Assembly (NCBI GenBank): GCA_002887195.1
Contig: PJAB01001480.1
Coordinates: 1 to 14,171, forward strand
Length of the DNA: 14,171 nucleotides
DNA from: Chrysochromulina parva
Taxonomy: Eukaryota > Haptophyta > Prymnesiales > Chrysochromulinaceae
Direction of reading: 5' to 3'
Shown piece by piece: positions 3,196 through 12,088 of the stretch (its first letter is position 1; each line of letters starts with the position of its first letter). A program made the position numbers and the translations under genes. The notes under the pieces were generated by a model. The model was given only the letters and a program-made list of their open reading frames with translations, had not been told where the DNA came from and made no database searches.

Positions 3196-4767
3196 TCATT
3201 TGACGGGCTCCGCGTCTCGGGTCAGCGCCGCTAGCTCGTCAGCCGCCCATGCCGCCGCCACGTTCTCATCGGCGCCCTGCGCGGCCGCCCGTTCGAGCCA
3301 CTCGATTGCCCGGCGGCTGCAGCGCTGCACGCCCTCGCCGCTCAGGTAGCATCGGCCAAGCGCGAGCTGTCCGCTGGGATGGCCCTGCACCGCCGCCCGC
3401 CGGTAGAGCTCCGCGACCGCCTCAGCTGTCGCCGCCGGCGTCAGTAGCTTCACGGCCGCCTCCGCGGCCTCCTCCTCTGGCGCCCGGTACAGCGCCAATG
3501 AGTCGTCGCCGGACGACCGAAGCGGCAATGGCGCCCGGTACAGCGCCTCGCGAACGGCCCTGGCGAGCAGCTCGCCACCTACCTCGCCTGCTTGCACCAT
3601 CGAGCCCAGATGCACCTGCGCGAGTGCGCGGAGGCAACCACGTGGGCACTCACGTAGGCACTCAGAGAGGCAGAGCTCAATCCGAGCTCAATCCGAGCTC
3701 ACGCCGAGCTCACGCCGAGAAATGCACCTGAGCGAGAGCATTGCCTTGGCGCGCCGCCGCCGCGAGCCATCGCACAGCGCGGGTAAGGTCGTGAGGGCCG
3801 TAGCCAAACTCGTCGCCGCGATAATGAAAGCCTCCAAGCACGAATTGGGCTTCCGGATTGCCCGCCTCGGCCTCACGCTGCACCCACGGCGCCGAGCCCT
3901 CGCGCAATGCTCTCTCATCCTCTGAGAACCAGACCACGAGGGACAGCCGCTCGCCTGATCAGGGAGCTCACAACAATGGAGATCCACGGAGAGATCAACG
4001 GAGATCAATGGAGATCCACGGAGAGATCAACGGAGAGGAGATCACAAGGGATTGAGGGGTAGCCGCTCACCGGAGGGCACATGGACGCCATGCATGGTGT
4101 CGAAGCGATGCAGGAGAGCGTCGCCCGCCTCGAGCTGCACGTAGCGGCGGGAGGGCACGCCCGGCACCGCCTGCACGTACAGCCCTCCCTCGTACGCCGA
4201 CGCCGCCGACAGGCTCACGATCGCCGTCGCGAACGACGACACATCAAAGTGGGCTTCGAGTCGTCTTCTCTCCGTGGGCAGGTAGCGCCGGATGAGCACG
4301 TCCGAGACGCATGCACTAGCGGAGCCGAACCGCTCCTGCACGAAGGCTTGCAGCCTCGCGCACACGGGCGCCACATGCGCCGCGAGCGCGCCATCCATCG
4401 TCTCGCCACCCTCGACCACTCGGCACATGAAGGTTGCTTGTGCGTCGACCGTATCGAGAGCGGTGTCAAAGGCGGCCTGCCGACCATCGAGGTCGACAAG
4501 TAGCGCGCGGCGCTCCTCCGCACTCATCAACTGCGTCAGAAGATGCAGCCTTCGGCTGCCACCCAGTCCGGCGATGTGGGCCTCTGAGCCGGCGATGCCA
4601 AGGCTCTCGCTCCCAGTCCAGTCACCGATACTCGATGGCTGCGTCGAGCCGAACTGCTGGAAGAGCAGCGGCGATGGCGCTGCGAGCGCACTTGCACTTG
4701 GAAATGACGACGCGAGGAGCACAGACAAACGGCTGAGCTGGGCTCGCCTCGAGCAAGACTCGTGCAT
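3196..4767 (-). CDS. Prolyl 4-hydroxylase-like 2OG/Fe(II) dioxygenase with C-terminal Sel1 repeats
   Basis: Three exons, 447 aa: 4767-4071, 3954-3728 and 3615-3196; introns of 116 and 112 nt (phases 1 and 0). The ATG at 4767 starts an N-terminus with basic residues, a hydrophobic stretch and an ASALA site, a plausible signal peptide for the secretory pathway. The jelly-roll dioxygenase core carries the iron-binding HxD (H173, D175 in AHFD) and the distal His (H226 in MHGVHVPSGER), with R235 placed to bind 2-oxoglutarate, followed by LSLVVWFSEDE across the first intron. Residues ~245-447 contain Sel1-like repeats (AGNPEAQFVLGGFHY; QGHPSGQLALGRCYLSGEGV; AIEWLERAAAQGA). The family hydroxylates proline or related residues in proteins; the substrate is unknown. 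The splice joins restore both the dioxygenase core and a Sel1 helix, which supports the model. Confidence 0.85.
3955..4070 (-). repeat. Intron 1 of the P4H-Sel1 gene: tgatctc microrepeats and a copied exon start
   Basis: Read on the minus strand, the intron begins GTGAGCGGCTACCCCTC, while the following exon begins GCGAGCGGCTGTCCCTC (14 of 17 identical). The body repeats TTGATCTC/GGATCTC units, and the acceptor is CCCTGATCAG. Confidence 0.8.
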
Positions 4768-6353: not shown

Positions 6354-9300
6354 TTAGTTGTTGCTCAGGTCGGTATCGATCAGCCCAAAGTAGATCCAGA
6401 CGGAGCACACGCCACCCGGGTAGGCGATCGCCTTGACGGCGACGACGAACTCGACGCCATCATCCTGATTCTTATGATAGGTGGTGGATCCGAGCAGATG
6501 CTTTCGGATCTTCTTCGAGTCCTCGTACGCGTAATTGAAGGCGCGCGCCTGCAGCGTCGAACCGCCGGGTAATCTCGTCTTCACCTCGCGTTCCCATGAG
6601 GAGAGCTTCTCGAGAGCTTTCTCGTCGCCCACGCGCTTCAGCTCCTGCAGCTCGAGGCGATCAGAGGCATTCAGCGGCGATCAGCGGCATTCAGAGGCGA
6701 TCAGAGGCGATCAGAGGCACTCAGATGCCATCAAGGGGCACATCACCTGCAGCTCGAGCCCCTTGATCAGGCTCTGTACGAGCTCGGGAGACTTGTTGAT
6801 CGTCGTCTTGAGCGCCGGCCCGCGCTGCAGCTTGATCTGGGTCTCGAGCTCGCCCAAGATCTGCGCCTCGAGATTACGAAGCCGATCGGGCGCGACCTTC
6901 GGTGGGAGGCGCAGCGGTGTGTAAAAGGGGACGGGCAGACCCAGATTCTGCTCCCGCTTCTCGACGAAGCACTCCCACTGCGAGTCGGACTCGGCGGGTA
7001 GGTCATACTCAAGGAGCGCCGGGTCGCACATGCGCACGAGCTCGTCGCGTTTGGAGACCCACAGCTGCCTGTGATTGAAGATGCACTCGAGCGTCGCATA
7101 CGGCAAGTCAACCTTGGGCAGCGCGAGCTCATCGTAGAGATTACGACGGCGAGCTGCGGTCGTGGCGCCGCCGCCGCCATCGCCGCCGCCGCTCGCCTCC
7201 TCCTCCTCCTCCTCCTCGTTGTCAAAGACCCCCGCACCAGGGCGGCTGTGCGCCTTCATCTCGGCAAGCTCGTCGTCATCAAAGTAGATGATCTCGCCCA
7301 AATCTCCCTCGATCTCGTCACGGTTCAGGAGCTCGTCCATCATCACGTCCATGATGTCCGCCTCGCCCGCATCCAAAAGGTACTGATCTGTCTTGTAGTT
7401 CTCGAGCGCGCCGCCGTCGCCACTCTTGCCGCCTCCCTTGCCACCGCCCGGGCCGCCACTCCTGCCACCAGCGCCGCTGCTAGGTACGATCGCTCCAGCG
7501 CCACCGTCGCCGAGGTTGATCAACTCGACCTGCTGCGGCGCAGCGCCCGTGCCCTCGCCCTTCTTCTTTTTCGTCTTTCCGCCCGCGTCGTCTGCGGCCA
7601 CCACGGCTGCAGCAGCCGCTGCACTGCCGCCCTCCGCGCCCGGGGTCGCACTCGCCTCTGCCGCGCGCGCGAGCCCAGCCCGTTTGAGTCGCTCGTCCTC
7701 ATCCAACGGCGGGTGCCAACGGTTACGAAGCACGCGCATCGTGCCGTTGGACGATTCCCACATGCACACCGAGCCGTCGTCTTGGCGTGTGAGCACCCAG
7801 ACGTGGCGCTTCTCGCCGAGGATCGCTCCCTTGGAGCGCCCGACGCACACGTACGCATCCTCCCCAAGCCCAAGGAAGAGGTTGCACATGAGGAGCGAAT
7901 GGTCTTCGTAATCGCCCTTGCGCATCTCGAGGAAGAAAGGAGGCGCCTGCCACACGTCCTTTCGCGTCTCCTTTTTGAACGTGTCCGTGTCGGCAGACCA
8001 GGTGATACAGCGCACCATGCGCGCCACCTGCATCTTCGTCTTCATCTCCGACGGCGGCTGTGTGGGCGTGAGGTACTCGCACAACAGATGAACGGACTCA
8101 TCCTGGTCCTCAGCCGATACGAGCCGCCGGATGTCCTGCGCGCGCAATCAGAGCGCAATCAGAGCGCAATCAGAGCGCAATCAGAGCGCAATCAGAGGCC
8201 ATTCAGAGTCACTCAGAGTCACTCACGCACCTGCGGGCGCATCTCGAAGCCTGGATCGTCGCGAGAGAGTTCGAGCTTCAAATGGTCGCGCAGCTGGAAC
8301 TGGATCGCGCTCGGGATGGCGCGCCAGAACGACTTGACGCGGTTGGCCCACACCTGATGAAGAGACAATCACAGTCAGCAATCACATGCAATCAGGTGCA
8401 CTCCGAGCTCCCCATACCTCGCCGAGCTCCTTGACAGTCAGCAATCACATGCAATCAGGTGCACTCCGAGCTCCCCATACCTCGCCGAGCTCCTTGACAG
8501 TCAGCAATCACATGCAATCAGGTGCACTCCGAGCTTCCCATACCTCGCCGAGCTCCTTGACAGTGCGCTCCGCGGATTCCTCGAGCACGATGTCCTGCGG
8601 CAGGTCCGGGCAGAAATAGAGCTCGAGGTCGATCGTGGATGAGATCTTATTCCCAGGCAGGACGAGCGGCATCGCCTTCGCCTTGAAGACGCGCCCCTTG
8701 TGAAATCCCGCATGCTTGCCCGTCTCGTTCTCGACCTTCGCGTGCTCTGCGGACGTGATCTTATGCAGTGGGATTTCGCACGAGCCGAGCAGGTCGTGCC
8801 CCGCGGCGTCCTGGTCGAAGACCCGCACCTGTGGGAAAGTAGAGGCGCCGCAATGAGCACGTTCATGCTGCACTCCCATGCACTCATATGTTCTCATATG
8901 CACGCATATGCACTCATATGCACTCATATGCACTCATATGCAATCACACACAATCATACGCACCGAGATAGCTGGCTTGTCCATGAGCGATTGCAACGTG
9001 AGGGTGACCAACTTGAGAGGAAAGTAAAGCGTCTGGCGCCACTCGGGCTCGAGCGAGCGCAAGATCACCTGATGAGGGAGGCAATCAGCATGCACTCAGA
9101 GGCAATCAGCATGCATTCAGGCTCGAGCGAGCGCAAGATCACCTGATGAGGGAGGCAATCAGCATGCACTCAGAGGCACTCAGAGGGACTCAGCAAGCGC
9201 AGGATCACCTTCGTCTCCTGCTGCATCCCATCCCACTCGACGACGACGAAGGGGTCAGACGCGCCGTTGGGATCCGCCGGGATCAGCTTTGAGGCCGAGT

Positions 9301-12088
9301 TGATCCGCACGGCGAGGTACGTGATGCCAGGCTTACGCTCGACGAGTATGCCTATCTGATGGTACTCTGGCGTCTTCCCTTCGAAGAGGATCTGGCCGTA
9401 GAGCCGCCCTGCCGGCACCGTCTTCTTAGGGTACTTGCCGCGCACCTGTGGGGAAGTGGAGGCGCCGCGGTGAGCACTTGCATGCCCGCCGGCACCGTCA
9501 TCTTCGGGGACTTGGCCACTCACCTTGGGCTTGGAGGTGTCTGGTTGGTCCAGCGTGAGCTCGACTTCTACCTGCCCGTACCTGATGAGGGAGGCCATCA
9601 GGGGCGTTCAGAGCGCAATCAAGCGCCCAAGCAATGGTCATCAAGCGCAATCAAGAGCTCTCCAGGTGCAATCTGGGGCGATCCACTTACTCGAGCAGCC
9701 CGCTCAGGGGCACGTCAGCTTGACCGATGAGGTCGTCCGACGAGAAAAAGTCCCAGTCATGCACCTGTGTGTGGTGTGAACGGCGCCGTGGTGAGCACGC
9801 GCATGCAGCGAGGATCCTTAACTGTGGGATTCGAAGAAGCCCCAATCAGGGGCAATCACGTACCCGGATGCGCAGCAGCTCGTTCTCGAGCTCCGATCTC
9901 GTGCCGAGATACGCCAGTGGATTGCGCGCCTCATCAAACGTCGGGTTGAGCGTGTTGGCCTGCATATCCGTGCGTACCTAATTGCAATGAGGTGACGTTG
10001 AGCGGGCATGCAATGAGGTGAGAGGGGCAATTAGGGGAGGTGGCCGGGCATGCAATGAGGTGAGAGGGGCAATTAGGGGGGCTGGCCTGCATGTGCGTGC
10101 GTACCGTCCTCCCTGGTCAGCAGGTACGCATGCAATGAGGTGATAGGGGCAATTAGGGGCAATTAGGGGCAATCACGGTGCGTACCGTCCTCCCGAAATA
10201 GCCGCCATGACGCAGAATCTTGCACCCGGGGTGCGCGGGAGGGTCGATGGAGAAGACGATGTACGGATCGGACGTGGCCGCCATGTACCTGTGGGGACAC
10301 GACGCTGTGGTGAGCACTTGCATGCAAGGCGGGTCATCAGGTGGCAATCAGCGTACTCCTTCGGATCGAAAGTGCGCTTCGCTTCTGCTTTCTTAGCCTT
10401 GTCCAGGCGCTCCTCCTCGCGAGCGTCTTGCTGCTTCCTGAGGCGTCGCAGGCGTTTCATCTCTCTTTGGAGTTGCTCCTCCTTCTGGTCCGCGTCGCGC
10501 TGCTTCTGCAGCTCCACTCGCTCCTGGAACGAGAGCTTGCCCTTCTTCTTGGCTCCGTCGCCGCCGCCACCGCCAGACTTGCCGCCTATCCCAAGGGCCG
10601 CGAGCCAGCCGCGCTTGGGCGGCTGCGACGGCGACGCACCGTCGTTCAGAGCGTCGCTCTGGGGCCCCGTGACCAGTTTCTGGTGGTCGTGCTCGCCGCC
10701 GCCGCCGCTCGTGGTTTCGTCAGAGGCGCCCGCGCCGGCGCCCGTCTCGCCCGCCGGAGCGTTTGCTGTCGCGCCCGTGCCCCCACCGTCCTCTGGTGGG
10801 GGCAAGTACCTGCCTCCGGACTGCGCGGCGCGTTGCTTGTCGATCCGCATGCGACGATTGCGTTCCTGAGGAGGTCATCAGCAAGGTCATCAGCGAGGTC
10901 ATCAGCGAGGTCATCCCCGGATCCGCATTCGGCGGCTGCGCACCTTTTGCTTGCGCTTCAGCTCGAGCCGCTGCTTGAACGCCTCGCGCGCCGCCTCGAT
11001 CTTCGCCTTCCGCTTGGACTCTAAATCCTCGCTCTTGGCCGAGCGCTTCTTCTTCTTGGGCGTATCCGCGGCGATCAGCCCGACGCCCTTCCACAGCACG
11101 AATCGTAATTGAAAGACGAAGAGCTCTTCGAAGTAGACGACAAACGAGATGCGGAAGAGAGCGCCGCCGGACTTGGCGCTACCGCTGCCGCCGCCGTCCT
11201 TCTTCTCGTCCTTCAGGACAAACTCCTGCATCACCGAGCCCTGGGCAAGCTGCAGGAGAGAGAGCTTCTCGCCGCATCGCTTCTTGCCCTTCTTCGCCGT
11301 GAAGCTCTGGAACACCTGTGGGGGGCGACGGGGGCTCGCGCCGTGGTGAGCGCATGCACGCCATCGTGGGGACCGTGCCGACGGCTCACCTCGATCTCGA
11401 TCTCCTCCATCTCGAGATCGACGTACGAGCCCATCCAGTACACGGGGACGCCGTATCCGAACTCGTTCTTGAAGTAGTGCGGCGGGTCGTTCACGTCGAT
11501 GCGCGGACAGGCGGGCGTCTTGAACTGCGCCCCTTTCTTCGTTCCGCTCTTGACGAGACCCTTGCCGGGCACCTGTGGAAAGTGGAGGCGCCGTGGTGAG
11601 CACTGGCATGCTGGCCGGCACCGTCATCTTGACGAGAGCCAAATGCCGGGCACCTCTCGCTCCGTGTAGTCGCCGCCGACCATGATGCGCAGGTAGGAGC
11701 TGAGCCTCTCCTGGGTGAGCGCCTCGAGCTTGATCGCCTTCATCCGGAACTGGAAGACGCGCTTCGTCGTGTCCGGGTTCTTCTGCAGTAGCCGCTGGTA
11801 CTTTTCACGCTTGGCTGCCAACCGCGATGACTCCTTCGCCTCTTCACGGTTGCCCTTCTCTTTCTCGATGTCATCCCTCTTCTTCTTGGCCTCGGCAAGC
11901 TCCTTGTTCTTCTGCTCCGTGGCCGCCCGCCTCTCCTCCTTCTCCTTCTCCGATTCCTTGGCGAACGGGTTGAGCTTCGTCAAGAATGATAATCGACCCT
12001 TAGGTTCCTTTTTCGGGGTGTCGCCAACGCCGCCTGCAGCGCCGTCGCCGCCACTGGCCGCCACGCCCGCATCGCCGCCATCCGCCAT
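6354..12088 (-). CDS. Multi-C2, coiled-coil, transglutaminase-like ciliary protein (CC2D2A/CEP76 superfamily)
   Basis: My 14-exon model gives 1425 aa: 12088-11654, 11572-11390, 11315-10944, 10865-10357, 10288-10186, 9977-9864, 9764-9691, 9581-9524, 9445-9209, 9068-8964, 8828-8544, 8353-8231, 8135-6747, 6644-6354; every junction keeps frame with GT-AG ends. Order: charged coiled coil (45-103); first C2-like domain (~111-270); second C2 (~267-610) apparently split by a Lys-rich, Gly-rich coiled-coil insert (~288-500), with SDPYIVF and DWDFFSSDDLIG; third C2 (~657-800) with GASDPFVVVEW and DQDAAGHDLLG; then a transglutaminase-like domain (~890-1425). The latter shows GDYEDHSLLMCNLFLGLG, HVWVLT, CIFNHRQLW and the terminal AVKAIAYPGGVCSVWIY. 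Length and layout recall CC2D2A of the ciliary transition zone; the transglutaminase-like motifs look closer to centriolar CEP76. Tyr942 stands where active relatives carry the Cys, so it is probably a non-catalytic scaffold. Confidence 0.8.
6645..6746 (-). repeat. Intron 13: 102 nt bounded by a 12-bp direct repeat
   Basis: ctgcagctcgag occurs at 6747-6758 (last bases of exon 13) and again at 6645-6656 (last bases of the intron), exactly one intron length apart. The interior is an array of cagaggcgat/cagcggcatt-type units. The duplicated end supplies the CTGCAG acceptor. Confidence 0.85.
8136..8230 (-). repeat. Intron 12: 11-bp TGATTGCGCTC array
   Basis: On the minus strand the intron has four or more tandem copies of TGATTGCGCTC, preceded by GTGACTCTGA repeats, and ends GCGCGCAG. 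Each unit contains a TCTGATT that resembles a branch-site consensus. Confidence 0.8.
8354..8543 (-). repeat. Intron 11: 63-bp tandem repeat carrying extra copies of the exon 11 end and donor
   Basis: The 63-bp unit starts at 8386, 8449 and 8512. The third copy runs into the authentic exon 11 end (8544 upward). Two further copies of the exon end GAGCTCGGCGAG followed by a GTATGGGG donor therefore sit inside the intron. Potential donors are spaced 63 nt apart at 8543, 8480 and 8417; using an inner donor would bring a TGA stop into frame. Confidence 0.85.
8829..8963 (-). repeat. Intron 10: 10-bp GCATATGAGT array plus shared 3' module
   Basis: Several 10-bp GCATATGAGT-type units fill the 5' half (plus strand actcatatgc, about 8882-8942). 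The 3' half ends with the module seen in other introns: GTGCTCATTGCGGCGCC, a pyrimidine run, then CCCACAG. Confidence 0.85.
9069..9208 (-). repeat. Intron 9: 74-bp tandem duplication with repeated exon 10 starts and acceptors
   Basis: aagatcacctgatgag occurs at 9061 and 9135, a 74-bp period. On the minus strand, GTGATCTTGCGCTCGCTCGA is the true exon 10 start (9068) and recurs after an internal CATCAG acceptor (from 9142). A third, diverged copy, GTGATCCTGCGCTTGCT, forms the intron's 5' end (9208). Confidence 0.85.
9446..9523 (-). repeat. Intron 8: member of the shared 3'-module intron family
   Basis: 78 nt. Its last ~58 nt (9446-9504) match the end of intron 1 (11573-11631) with only about five differences and one single-base gap, including GACGGTGCCGGC, GTGCTCACC and GGCGCCTCCACTT before CCACAG. 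The same GACGGTGCCGGC also occurs in exon 9 downstream. Confidence 0.85.
9978..10185 (-). repeat. Intron 5: compound 208-nt intron with an embedded exon5/exon6 junction copy
   Basis: Plus strand 10084-10114 combines a near copy of the exon 6 start (ggcctgcat..cgtgcgtac) with the exon 5 end (cgtcctccc). Around it are 42-bp-period units starting gggcatgcaatgaggtg (10004, 10046, and a related copy near 10124) and many caattagggg motifs. It looks like two intron units flanking a relic junction. Confidence 0.8.
11573..11653 (-). repeat. Intron 1: copied exon 2 start plus shared 3' module
   Basis: 81 nt. The intron begins GTGCCCGGCA and, a few bases on, TCTCGTCAAGA. Exon 2 begins with the same two blocks in the same order, offset by one or two bases. 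The remaining ~58 nt are the module shared with intron 8. Confidence 0.85.

Follow-up and report, generated by a model that had tools for sequence, protein, structure and literature searches.

The origin of introns has been a question for a long time, and what happens between a donor intron and a recipient intron is seldom visible. A window of 14,171 nucleotides from the haptophyte Chrysochromulina parva (contig PJAB01001480.1; the window is the whole stretch of DNA analysed here) raises this question within a single gene, two introns of which share almost the same 3' part: was one copied from the other and, if so, how? Judged from the genome assembly, many genes of this alga seem to have received copies of back-half pieces of introns, with a duplicate of the recipient's own exon usually giving the missing front half.

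The Host Gene and the Pair of Introns 1 and 8

The host gene lies on the minus strand (6354..12088), as do all its parts described below, and has 14 exons and 13 predicted introns. Once these introns are taken out, an uninterrupted reading frame of 1,425 amino acids is obtained, encoding a product in which a profile search found C2 and CEP76-like peptidase domains (PF24656, 1.5e-20; C2, 3.5e-5). Its relatives include a haptophyte homologue and metagenome sequences. Searches of Rfam gave no family match anywhere in the window, and a protein search with the repeat gene of the plus strand gave no match. Introns are understood here as predicted GT...CAG segments, and we infer the splicing of the half-introns among them.

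The original prediction held that the 3' parts of introns 1 and 8 are nearly identical, and positions 9451-9504 and 11577-11630 indeed align without gaps at 91% identity over 54 nt. Both stretches are 3' ends of predicted introns of the one gene, namely intron 1 (81 nt, 11653-11573), read as the recipient copy, and intron 8 (78 nt, 9523-9446), read as the donor copy, each delimited by the module match, the spliced reading frame and homologues. Junction 1 is ungapped in 5 of the 7 homologues that cover it and junction 8 in 13 of 15, the exceptions being the two most distant homologues. The main feature of the pair had been missed: the 5' part of each intron copies the start of its own downstream exon, and this copy gives the predicted donor site. 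In intron 1 the duplicate (11627..11653), whose GT is the predicted donor, aligns to the exon 2 start (11548..11572) with a score of 18, against a mean of 7.1 and a maximum of 16 for intron/other-exon pairs; in intron 8 the duplicate (9488..9523) aligns to the exon 9 start (9411..9445, placed by homologues and alignment) with a score of 25 (intron/other-exon maximum 16), and the exon 9 peptide is kept in the protein alignment of homologues. The core, pyrimidine tract and acceptor follow at 11573..11612 and 9446..9486, respectively, as located by repeat alignment and genome matches.

The duplicate in intron 8 is also the source of a tag. As had been stated, GACGGTGCCGGC from the shared block is present in exon 9 as well, and pattern search and tag-pair comparison found the tag AAGATGACGGTGCCGGC of intron 1 (11614..11630) to be common only to intron 8. 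At up to two mismatches, introns 8 and 1 are the only places in the genome that have the 15-nt extension with NNGCATGC after it; a further 16 matches all stand at three mismatches (reversed control, 3). The proposed order of transfer, from exon 9 to intron 8 to intron 1, fits these data, the exon 9 tag lying in the duplicate of intron 8 and elsewhere only in intron 1. The further proposal, that the module itself arose at intron 8, was rejected: its core belongs to a genome-wide family and only a tag of 15-17 nt comes from exon 9. Over the 10 positions after the GT, exon 9 as donor matches exon 2 as target at 9 (probability of at least nine in other pairs, 0.0005), and the sequence can be read as joining target and donor in intron 1 over four matching bases, AAGA.

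Other introns of the gene are built from related parts. Repeat alignment and the spliced reading frame place the core in introns 2 (11316..11389), 6 (9765..9863) and 10 (8829..8963), the last with a tail resembling those of introns 1 and 8. Intron 4 (10289..10356) is of the full-length form, bringing both a donor (GTACGCTGATTGCC...) and an acceptor of its own, and no long duplication was seen in it (score 8, inside the control range). Other modules occur in intron 3 (10866..10943; TGATGACC repeats and a duplicate of the exon 4 start, with a score of 13 that exceeds the control 95% point of 10 and stays below the control maximum of 16), in intron 5 (9978..10185; exon 6 start duplicated within the intron, score 18) and in intron 9 (9069..9208; module ending in CTGATTGCCTCCCTCATCAG, exon 10 start duplicated twice by repeat and intron/exon alignment). 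Intron 11 (8354..8543) iterates a 63-nt unit and holds a copy of the end of the exon upstream of it (score 21, against at most 15 in controls). Intron 13 (6645..6746) is a mirror case, its acceptor end being similar to the end of the upstream exon (score 13, against a control 95% point of 11 and a maximum of 15).

A Module Family Across the Genome

The genome-wide search suggested with the original prediction returned many copies. A 71-nt query from intron 8 gave at least 46 matches at E <= 0.001, and a 21-nt part of the core gave 1,743 (876 + 867) at up to three mismatches, against 0/0 in the control. On these counts a chance match between introns 1 and 8 was rejected; paralogy as its source was rejected as well. 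A pyrimidine tract and YAG accompany 160 of 227 core matches, the other 67 being without such an acceptor, and the two bases after the YAG in those 160 are GT in 129, GC in 9 and others in 22 (GT background 5%). The core matches thus sit at a constant place ahead of the acceptor, which bears out the reading as introner-like copies. The 221 sampled core copies, a non-random sample drawn mostly from the best matches, sit in different exons, with many similar introns at unrelated positions.

Thirteen inserts consist of the core only (26-35 nt, for a conserved core of 26 nt), some of them in tandem arrays; at locus L083 one such piece, with a duplication, adjoins a sense copy in the opposite orientation, which places two cores within about 60 nt. 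Searches with the exact 24-nt core found nothing in the collection of bacterial and archaeal genomes and one match in a viral contig, which looks chimeric (L098). Loci L011, L013 and L018 have the string GCCCGATGCG upstream of their core and belong to a subfamily of three genome members in which the sequence from string to core differs, and TGATTGC repeats dominate the matches listed when the loci are compared with each other by BLAST. A second module, unrelated in sequence, has 2,054 pattern matches in the genome; at least nine sampled cases of it are put together in the same way, these being the clean ones counted by eye among 61 repeat cases without the core, many of which are simple-repeat arrays.

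Build of the Copies

In the usual form (class A) the insert lies in an exon between two copies of an exon stretch, the duplicate beginning at a GT and being about 15-50 nt long (median 27; 14-49 nt with a median of 28 in the class A lengths as listed). The insert carries only the branch-point region, pyrimidine tract and CAG; the 5' half of the predicted intron is the duplicate of the downstream exon start, with the GT of the duplicate as predicted donor, and removal of the predicted intron would take out one duplicate together with the insert and restore the message. Similarity among class A introns covers the 3' part only and not both intron ends, although full-length forms exist (L115/L132). 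The acceptor lies within the insert, so that the duplicated exon does not supply both splice sites; the inserted piece has no constant left end and may bring along part of the exon-derived duplicate of its donor intron.

A flanking duplicate (score >=14) was found in 151 of the 221 core copies, against 46 of 1,095 mismatched pairs. With 15 of the 151 set aside as tandem, 136 remained, of which 72 have the donor from the duplicate, 11 are of the mirror type (class B) by rule, one is both and 52 are unclassified; a label requires that both duplicates have GT or GC, and class A copies that have diverged therefore count among the 52. Seven of the 11 class B rows clearly have their own donor arm (L014, L020, L039, L042, L060, L093, L100), with inserts that start at the GT of the intron and end near the branch-point region, and the others are tandem or ambiguous. 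The reading frame agrees after predicted splicing in 58 of all 72 class A copies and in 51 of 58 clear cases, and for clear non-triplet introns in 31 of 37 when spliced against 4 of 37 when unspliced (codon model trained on the window gene; self-check 300/300 on that same gene). Imprecise in-frame offsets seemed rare, with about one case by eye (L054). An early count of AGGT near the repeat start (50 of 121 repeats) was superseded by a rule that tracks the junction.

Tags are shared by other introns as well, in 32 pairs including introns 1 and 8, of which three reach 9/10 exon agreement. Mean exon-start agreement is 4.1 vs 3.3 (naive P 0.0017) in a set that excludes near-identical exon-start pairs and 24 pairs with standard motifs in common, and in which one tandem pair (L003), introns 1 and 8 themselves, repeats of one locus and probable chance matches remain. 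Two further upstream tags had only their own copies, with no second copy in the assembly at up to three mismatches. Near-identical modules occur in 11 of 77 same-contig pairs vs 119 of 8,138 others (permutation p < 0.001; near-identical exon-start pairs excluded, five of the 11 from contig C251 and one a tandem pair), and copying is partly local.

Possible Mechanisms of Copying

The best explanation of the half-introns, to which we give an even chance, is that the copies are made from DNA through template switching. The growing strand would leave the target exon 15-50 nt beyond a GTRNG, switch into a donor intron at a few matching bases, copy the 3' half of that intron through the CAG and the GTRNG of the donor exon, and switch back at the target's own GTRNG. 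This single rule would account for the insert and for the duplication, for a junction at exactly CAG|GT and for a product that can be spliced, with no transposase. Counted in its favour were the duplicates, the GT after the acceptor, the frame agreement and the one build of two unrelated modules, together with the exon 9 tag, the agreement of exons 9 and 2, the AAGA join and the local bias. Against it stand the lack of significant correlation between module and exon-start similarity over all copies (Mantel p = 0.148) and an unfiltered scan of all local repeats, in which AG|GT ranks only tenth among the boundaries by frequency (125 of 1,826). Most of the 32 tag pairs, moreover, are ordinary in exon similarity and non-independent, and several of the tags may have arisen by chance. 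Of the 136 duplicated copies, 52 do not show the GT rule in its coded form, and after 22 of the 160 acceptors there is neither GT nor GC. The CAG|GT junction can also come from purifying selection for exact splicing.

The main rival, a serious one that we hold less probable than template switching, is that excised intron RNA is mobile: whole or trimmed introns, retaining the true 3' end, the true 5' end, both or neither, would be reverse transcribed and captured at staggered nicks, the fill-in giving duplications of 15-50 nt. Class A inserts ending at CAG and clear class B inserts starting at GT and stopping near the branch-point region agree with this, as do five matches to reverse-transcriptase domains in the genome. 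The L115 intron is an exact-ended full-length copy of that at L132 (2 differences in 79 nt by reading); no duplication was seen there and the exons are not similar, in keeping with the excised-intron route and against template switching. However, mobile intron RNA predicts neither the similarity of donor and target exons (9/10 for exons 9 and 2) nor the local bias, and core-only pieces with duplications, including the oppositely oriented one at L083, are insertions without intron ends. We consider it unlikely that the module is a non-autonomous DNA transposon (a MITE-type introner) cut or copied by a transposase, although its thousands of copies, the conserved 26-nt core with 13 core-only inserts, the flanking duplications and the two opposed cores at L083, which resemble inverted ends, would suit one: class A duplications vary (14-49 nt) instead of being fixed at 3-9, neither the core nor the full-length form showed an inverted repeat at its ends by eye, the left end is variable and bears donor-site sequence, and two unrelated modules have the same build. 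Still less probable is selection alone, in which random fragments are end-joined at staggered breaks, as proposed for Daphnia, and exact splicers survive. Core-only inserts without splice sites are present here, and the available text on Daphnia describes new introns that share repeats with one adjacent exon (PMC4202315), but the repeats it gives are of 4-12 bp, two sequence families of about 2,000 matches each occur here, and clear imprecise offsets seemed rare. An assembly artefact or gene duplication is hardly credible: the assembly is fragmented (2,199 contigs), but the copies lie in different genes and exons, frames are restored, and homologues back the junctions of introns 1 and 8.

Returning to template switching, we tentatively propose, with more doubt than belief, a transposase-free intron replicator in which the class A CAG|GTRNG junction would be the homology that guides the next copy, each event giving a spliceable intron with a fresh front half from the host exon. 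The back half of any intron could join, and a large share of the alga's introns may have been built in this way.

Relation to Known Systems

The half-introns are introner-like, being similar introns at new positions from which predicted splicing would restore the message. The accessible parts of the introner survey of Gozashti et al. (2022; PMC9860276) describe co-option of splice sites, the 5' site coming from the duplication in Symbiodinium and the 3' site in Chrysochromulina, with duplications of 4 bp in both, 8 bp in Aureococcus and 3-9 bp in earlier families. The families here resemble those introners, as there portrayed, in occurring at new positions and in carrying one splice site while the duplicated target gives the other, but differ in duplications of about 15-50 nt, up to half of the intron, and also in that no terminal inverted repeats were seen by eye and the left end is not fixed. 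New Daphnia introns, attributed to repair of staggered breaks, likewise have an exon end directly repeated at the opposite intron end; their repeats are shorter than those here, and the portion of the report at hand mentions no dominant sequence family (PMC4202315). Tandem duplication of AGGT exon segments, as outlined in the available text of PMC3443670, also draws a splice site from a duplicated exon, but there both sites come from the duplicate and nothing is inserted, whereas here an inserted module brings the acceptor and branch-point region. Repeat introns number thousands in Micromonas and tens to about 500 in fungi, and partial copies of the Micromonas elements often keep only a 50-nt motif; the sections available of these sources describe both as repeat introns, with no long exon duplication (PMC3879977, PMC3443670).

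Because pieces of donor exons can ride with the copies as tags, single transfers can be traced and their junctions read. The introner survey, by the account available, demanded similarity at both intron ends (PMC9860276), a rule that would tend to exclude copies of class A, and intron gain of this kind may therefore be undercounted elsewhere.

Introns 1 and 8 of the Window Gene

The window gene is read on the minus strand from 12088 to 6354, and removal of its 13 introns at hand-chosen junctions leaves an unbroken frame of 1,425 amino acids with a stop at its end. A domain search finds a CEP76-like peptidase and a C2 domain in the product. Its closest match is a metagenome protein (77% identity); among matches with a named organism, that of Haptolina brevifila, a haptophyte, is the best (64% identity). 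Introns 1 and 8 are nearly identical in their 3' parts, as first noted, with 9451-9504 and 11577-11630 aligning ungapped at 91% identity. Their 5' parts are copies of host exon: in intron 8, 36 nt repeat the 35 nt with which exon 9 begins, and in intron 1, 27 nt repeat the opening 25 nt of exon 2. The predicted splice sites of both introns are well supported at the sequence level, because most covering homologues are ungapped at the junctions in protein alignments (5 of 7 at junction 1 and 13 of 15 at junction 8, the exceptions being the two most distant); a one-residue gap in the former alignment lies some ten residues downstream of the junction. Similarity to the downstream exon exceeds the 95% point of the control in 5 of the 13 introns, and similarity to the upstream exon in 2 of 13.

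On the plus strand, the window carries seven 126-nt repeats (42 codons) at 1006-2061, which matched no protein family in the domain search and have a unit length presumably like that of armadillo-type protein repeats. A GGM-rich tract of 12-nt repeats follows at about 2090-2656.

A Genome-Wide Family of Half Introns

The assembly searched comprises 45.07 Mb in 2,199 contigs. The 21-nt string TGCATGCAAGTGCTCACCACG, allowing up to three mismatches, occurs at 876 + 867 places and its reversed control at none, which bears out the reading of the shared module as an introner-like copy. The exact 24-nt core, the short conserved part of this module, is absent from a collection of bacterial and archaeal genomes. 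The two bases following the acceptor are GT in 129/160 core hits, GC in 9/160 and others in 22/160, against a GT background of 5%; 67 of 227 core hits are without such an acceptor.

Among 221 distinct core copies in 137 sampled loci, 151 are flanked by a direct repeat (score ≥14), vs. 46 of 1,095 mismatched pairs, in which the two flanks come from different copies. Median repeat length is 27 nt (5-95%: 17-50), and repeat identity has a median of 97%. In 72 of the 136 non-tandem duplicated copies (class A) an acceptor AG closes the insert and GT (or GC) opens the repeat, so that the first repeat copy is the predicted donor site. The mirror image (class B) applies by rule to 11/136, seven of which clearly bring their own donor (GTACGTTGATTGCC... 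or similar) and find the acceptor AG in the duplicated upstream exon; one copy fits both classes, and 52/136 are unclassified, including tandem arrays, class A copies with an altered first base, and core-only inserts. Recent class A activity is suggested by the identical repeats in 26 of 72 copies. The base preceding GT is often G (59/71), but a full AG is not required there, A standing at -2 in 36/71.

Reading frames were predicted independently on each side of the class A segments, with codon statistics taken from the window gene. Upon splicing the frames agree in 58/72 cases, or 51 of the 58 clear ones; for clear introns with a length that is not a multiple of three, agreement is 31/37 spliced vs. 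4/37 unspliced.

An array of 48-nt units at about 719-1171 of L071 (contig C760), each with core and duplicate in several copies, is tandem growth later than insertion. At about 1500 of L062 (minus strand), a core-only insert and its 31-nt duplicate lack splice sites and together span 57 nt, a multiple of three; this is possibly a translated insertion. A rare subfamily of three copies (L011, L013, L018) has GCCCGATGCG in common upstream of the core, with differing sequence between the two. An exact core with acceptor also lies at the extreme end (4380-4554, L098) of IMG/VR contig 3300027760_000958, filed as viral, which is probably a chimeric assembly and suggests that the alga or a relative was present in that sample.

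A Second, Unrelated Module

A second module, unrelated to the core and ending in CTGATTGCCTCCCTCATCAG, occurs at 1,063 + 991 places (control 0/0; pattern including the GT behind the module, up to two mismatches), with at least nine clean cases by eye of the same exon duplication. Since this unrelated module has the same duplication, the build is independent of any one set of element ends. In an unfiltered scan of local repeats AG|GT is only the tenth commonest boundary (125/1,826), so the scan alone proves nothing and the matched cases carry the proof. TGATTGC-type modules with an exon duplicate also stand in window introns 3, 5, and 9, the duplicate of intron 3 being weak (score 13, under the control maximum of 16). 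The two modules contain putative branch-point sequences, CTCAC and CTGAT, judged by the consensus. Window introns 3, 5, 7, and 9-13 consist largely of repeated TGATTGC-type units of ~10 nt, perhaps repeated branch-point-like sequences.

Direction of Transfer

The stretch GATGACGGTGCCGGC followed by NNGCATGC, at up to two mismatches, has no occurrence outside introns 8 and 1. Within intron 8 this tag lies in the copied part of exon 9, an exon with a peptide that homologues conserve; within intron 1 it is assigned to the insert, since nothing like it stands in exon 2. The predicted direction from exon 9 to intron 8 to intron 1 is thereby upheld, but the module itself did not form at intron 8, as had been proposed: the tag alone was made there. 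Other sampled introns also have upstream tags in common: L124, L059, and L024 (CTCCCCCTCG), L137 and L103 (CCCGTCCCTCAGC), and two introns of contig C251 (GTACCGGCGC). At L080 (contig C2082), one intron has a tag, TGATGGAGC, that sits in the duplicated exon of its neighbor. Tag CTCGGACGACTCGCGGC of L136 is present in the exon of L108, and two further tags found no partner in the assembly search. Introns of the same contig have near-identical modules about ten times as often as others (11/77 vs. 119/8,138; permutation p < 0.001), the 11 pairs including five from one contig and one tandem pair.

How Copies May Be Made

Two routes fit the copies, and of these template switching is preferred, at about even odds. 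The exact CAG|GT junction would then come from similarity of the donor exon start to the target, and exons 9 and 2 share 9 of the 10 bases that follow GT, a level reached by 0.05% of other pairs. Such agreement occurs in 3 of 32 tag-sharing pairs, with exons 9/2 counted in, although L108/L136 might be a short homologous peptide, and exon-start similarity over all core copies has no significant trend. Capture of excised intron RNA, in which the ends of the copy are the intron ends, is the less likely of the two. It fits class B and the few reverse-transcriptase genes in the genome, as well as the whole L132 intron, which, including its exon-derived front half, stands with exact ends in another gene (L115), where no duplication was seen by eye. 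Contigs C1434, C324, C103, and C34 of the assembly (G000) carry long open frames (1,345-2,709 aa) that contain reverse-transcriptase domains and are a possible enzyme source.

The long, variable duplication and the varying left end make a transposase-driven element less likely, although L083, with two oppositely oriented cores, may speak for it. The minus-strand core there (at about 919), opposite to the adjoining sense copy, has a perfect 22-nt flanking repeat and represents either an insertion without use of splice sites or the inverted ends of a longer element.

Comparison With Known Introners

The repeats described here (median 27 nt; 5-95%: 17-50) are longer than the introner duplications named by Gozashti et al. 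(2022; PMC9860276), which span 3-9 bp for earlier families, 4 bp in Symbiodinium and Chrysochromulina and 8 bp in Aureococcus, and longer than the 4-12 bp repeats of Daphnia (PMC4202315). Amoebophrya has direct repeats of 3-5 nt accompanied by inverted repeats (PMC7789003). Repeats of 4-30 bp (mean 11.4) have been described near the borders of introns of many kinds (PMC11782384). Tandem duplication of AGGT exons, as reviewed in PMC3443670, involves no insert, whereas here a module is inserted between the exon duplicates. The Chrysochromulina example of PMC9860276, a Tara metagenome haptophyte, could be related to class B, and families of the present genome may be listed in its supplement; that survey, which needed similarity near both intron ends, would tend to pass over class A. 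The accessible portions of these papers, and of those on viral (PMC12768974) and Micromonas (PMC3879977) introners, do not describe a build of half intron and exon duplication, nor do the titles and abstract openings among the matches listed from the open-licence literature on introners and intron gain describe half introns with long exon duplication. The mobile part is half an intron, the host exon supplying the other half; this is a real, genome-wide form of introner, and its build is new among the introners compared here.
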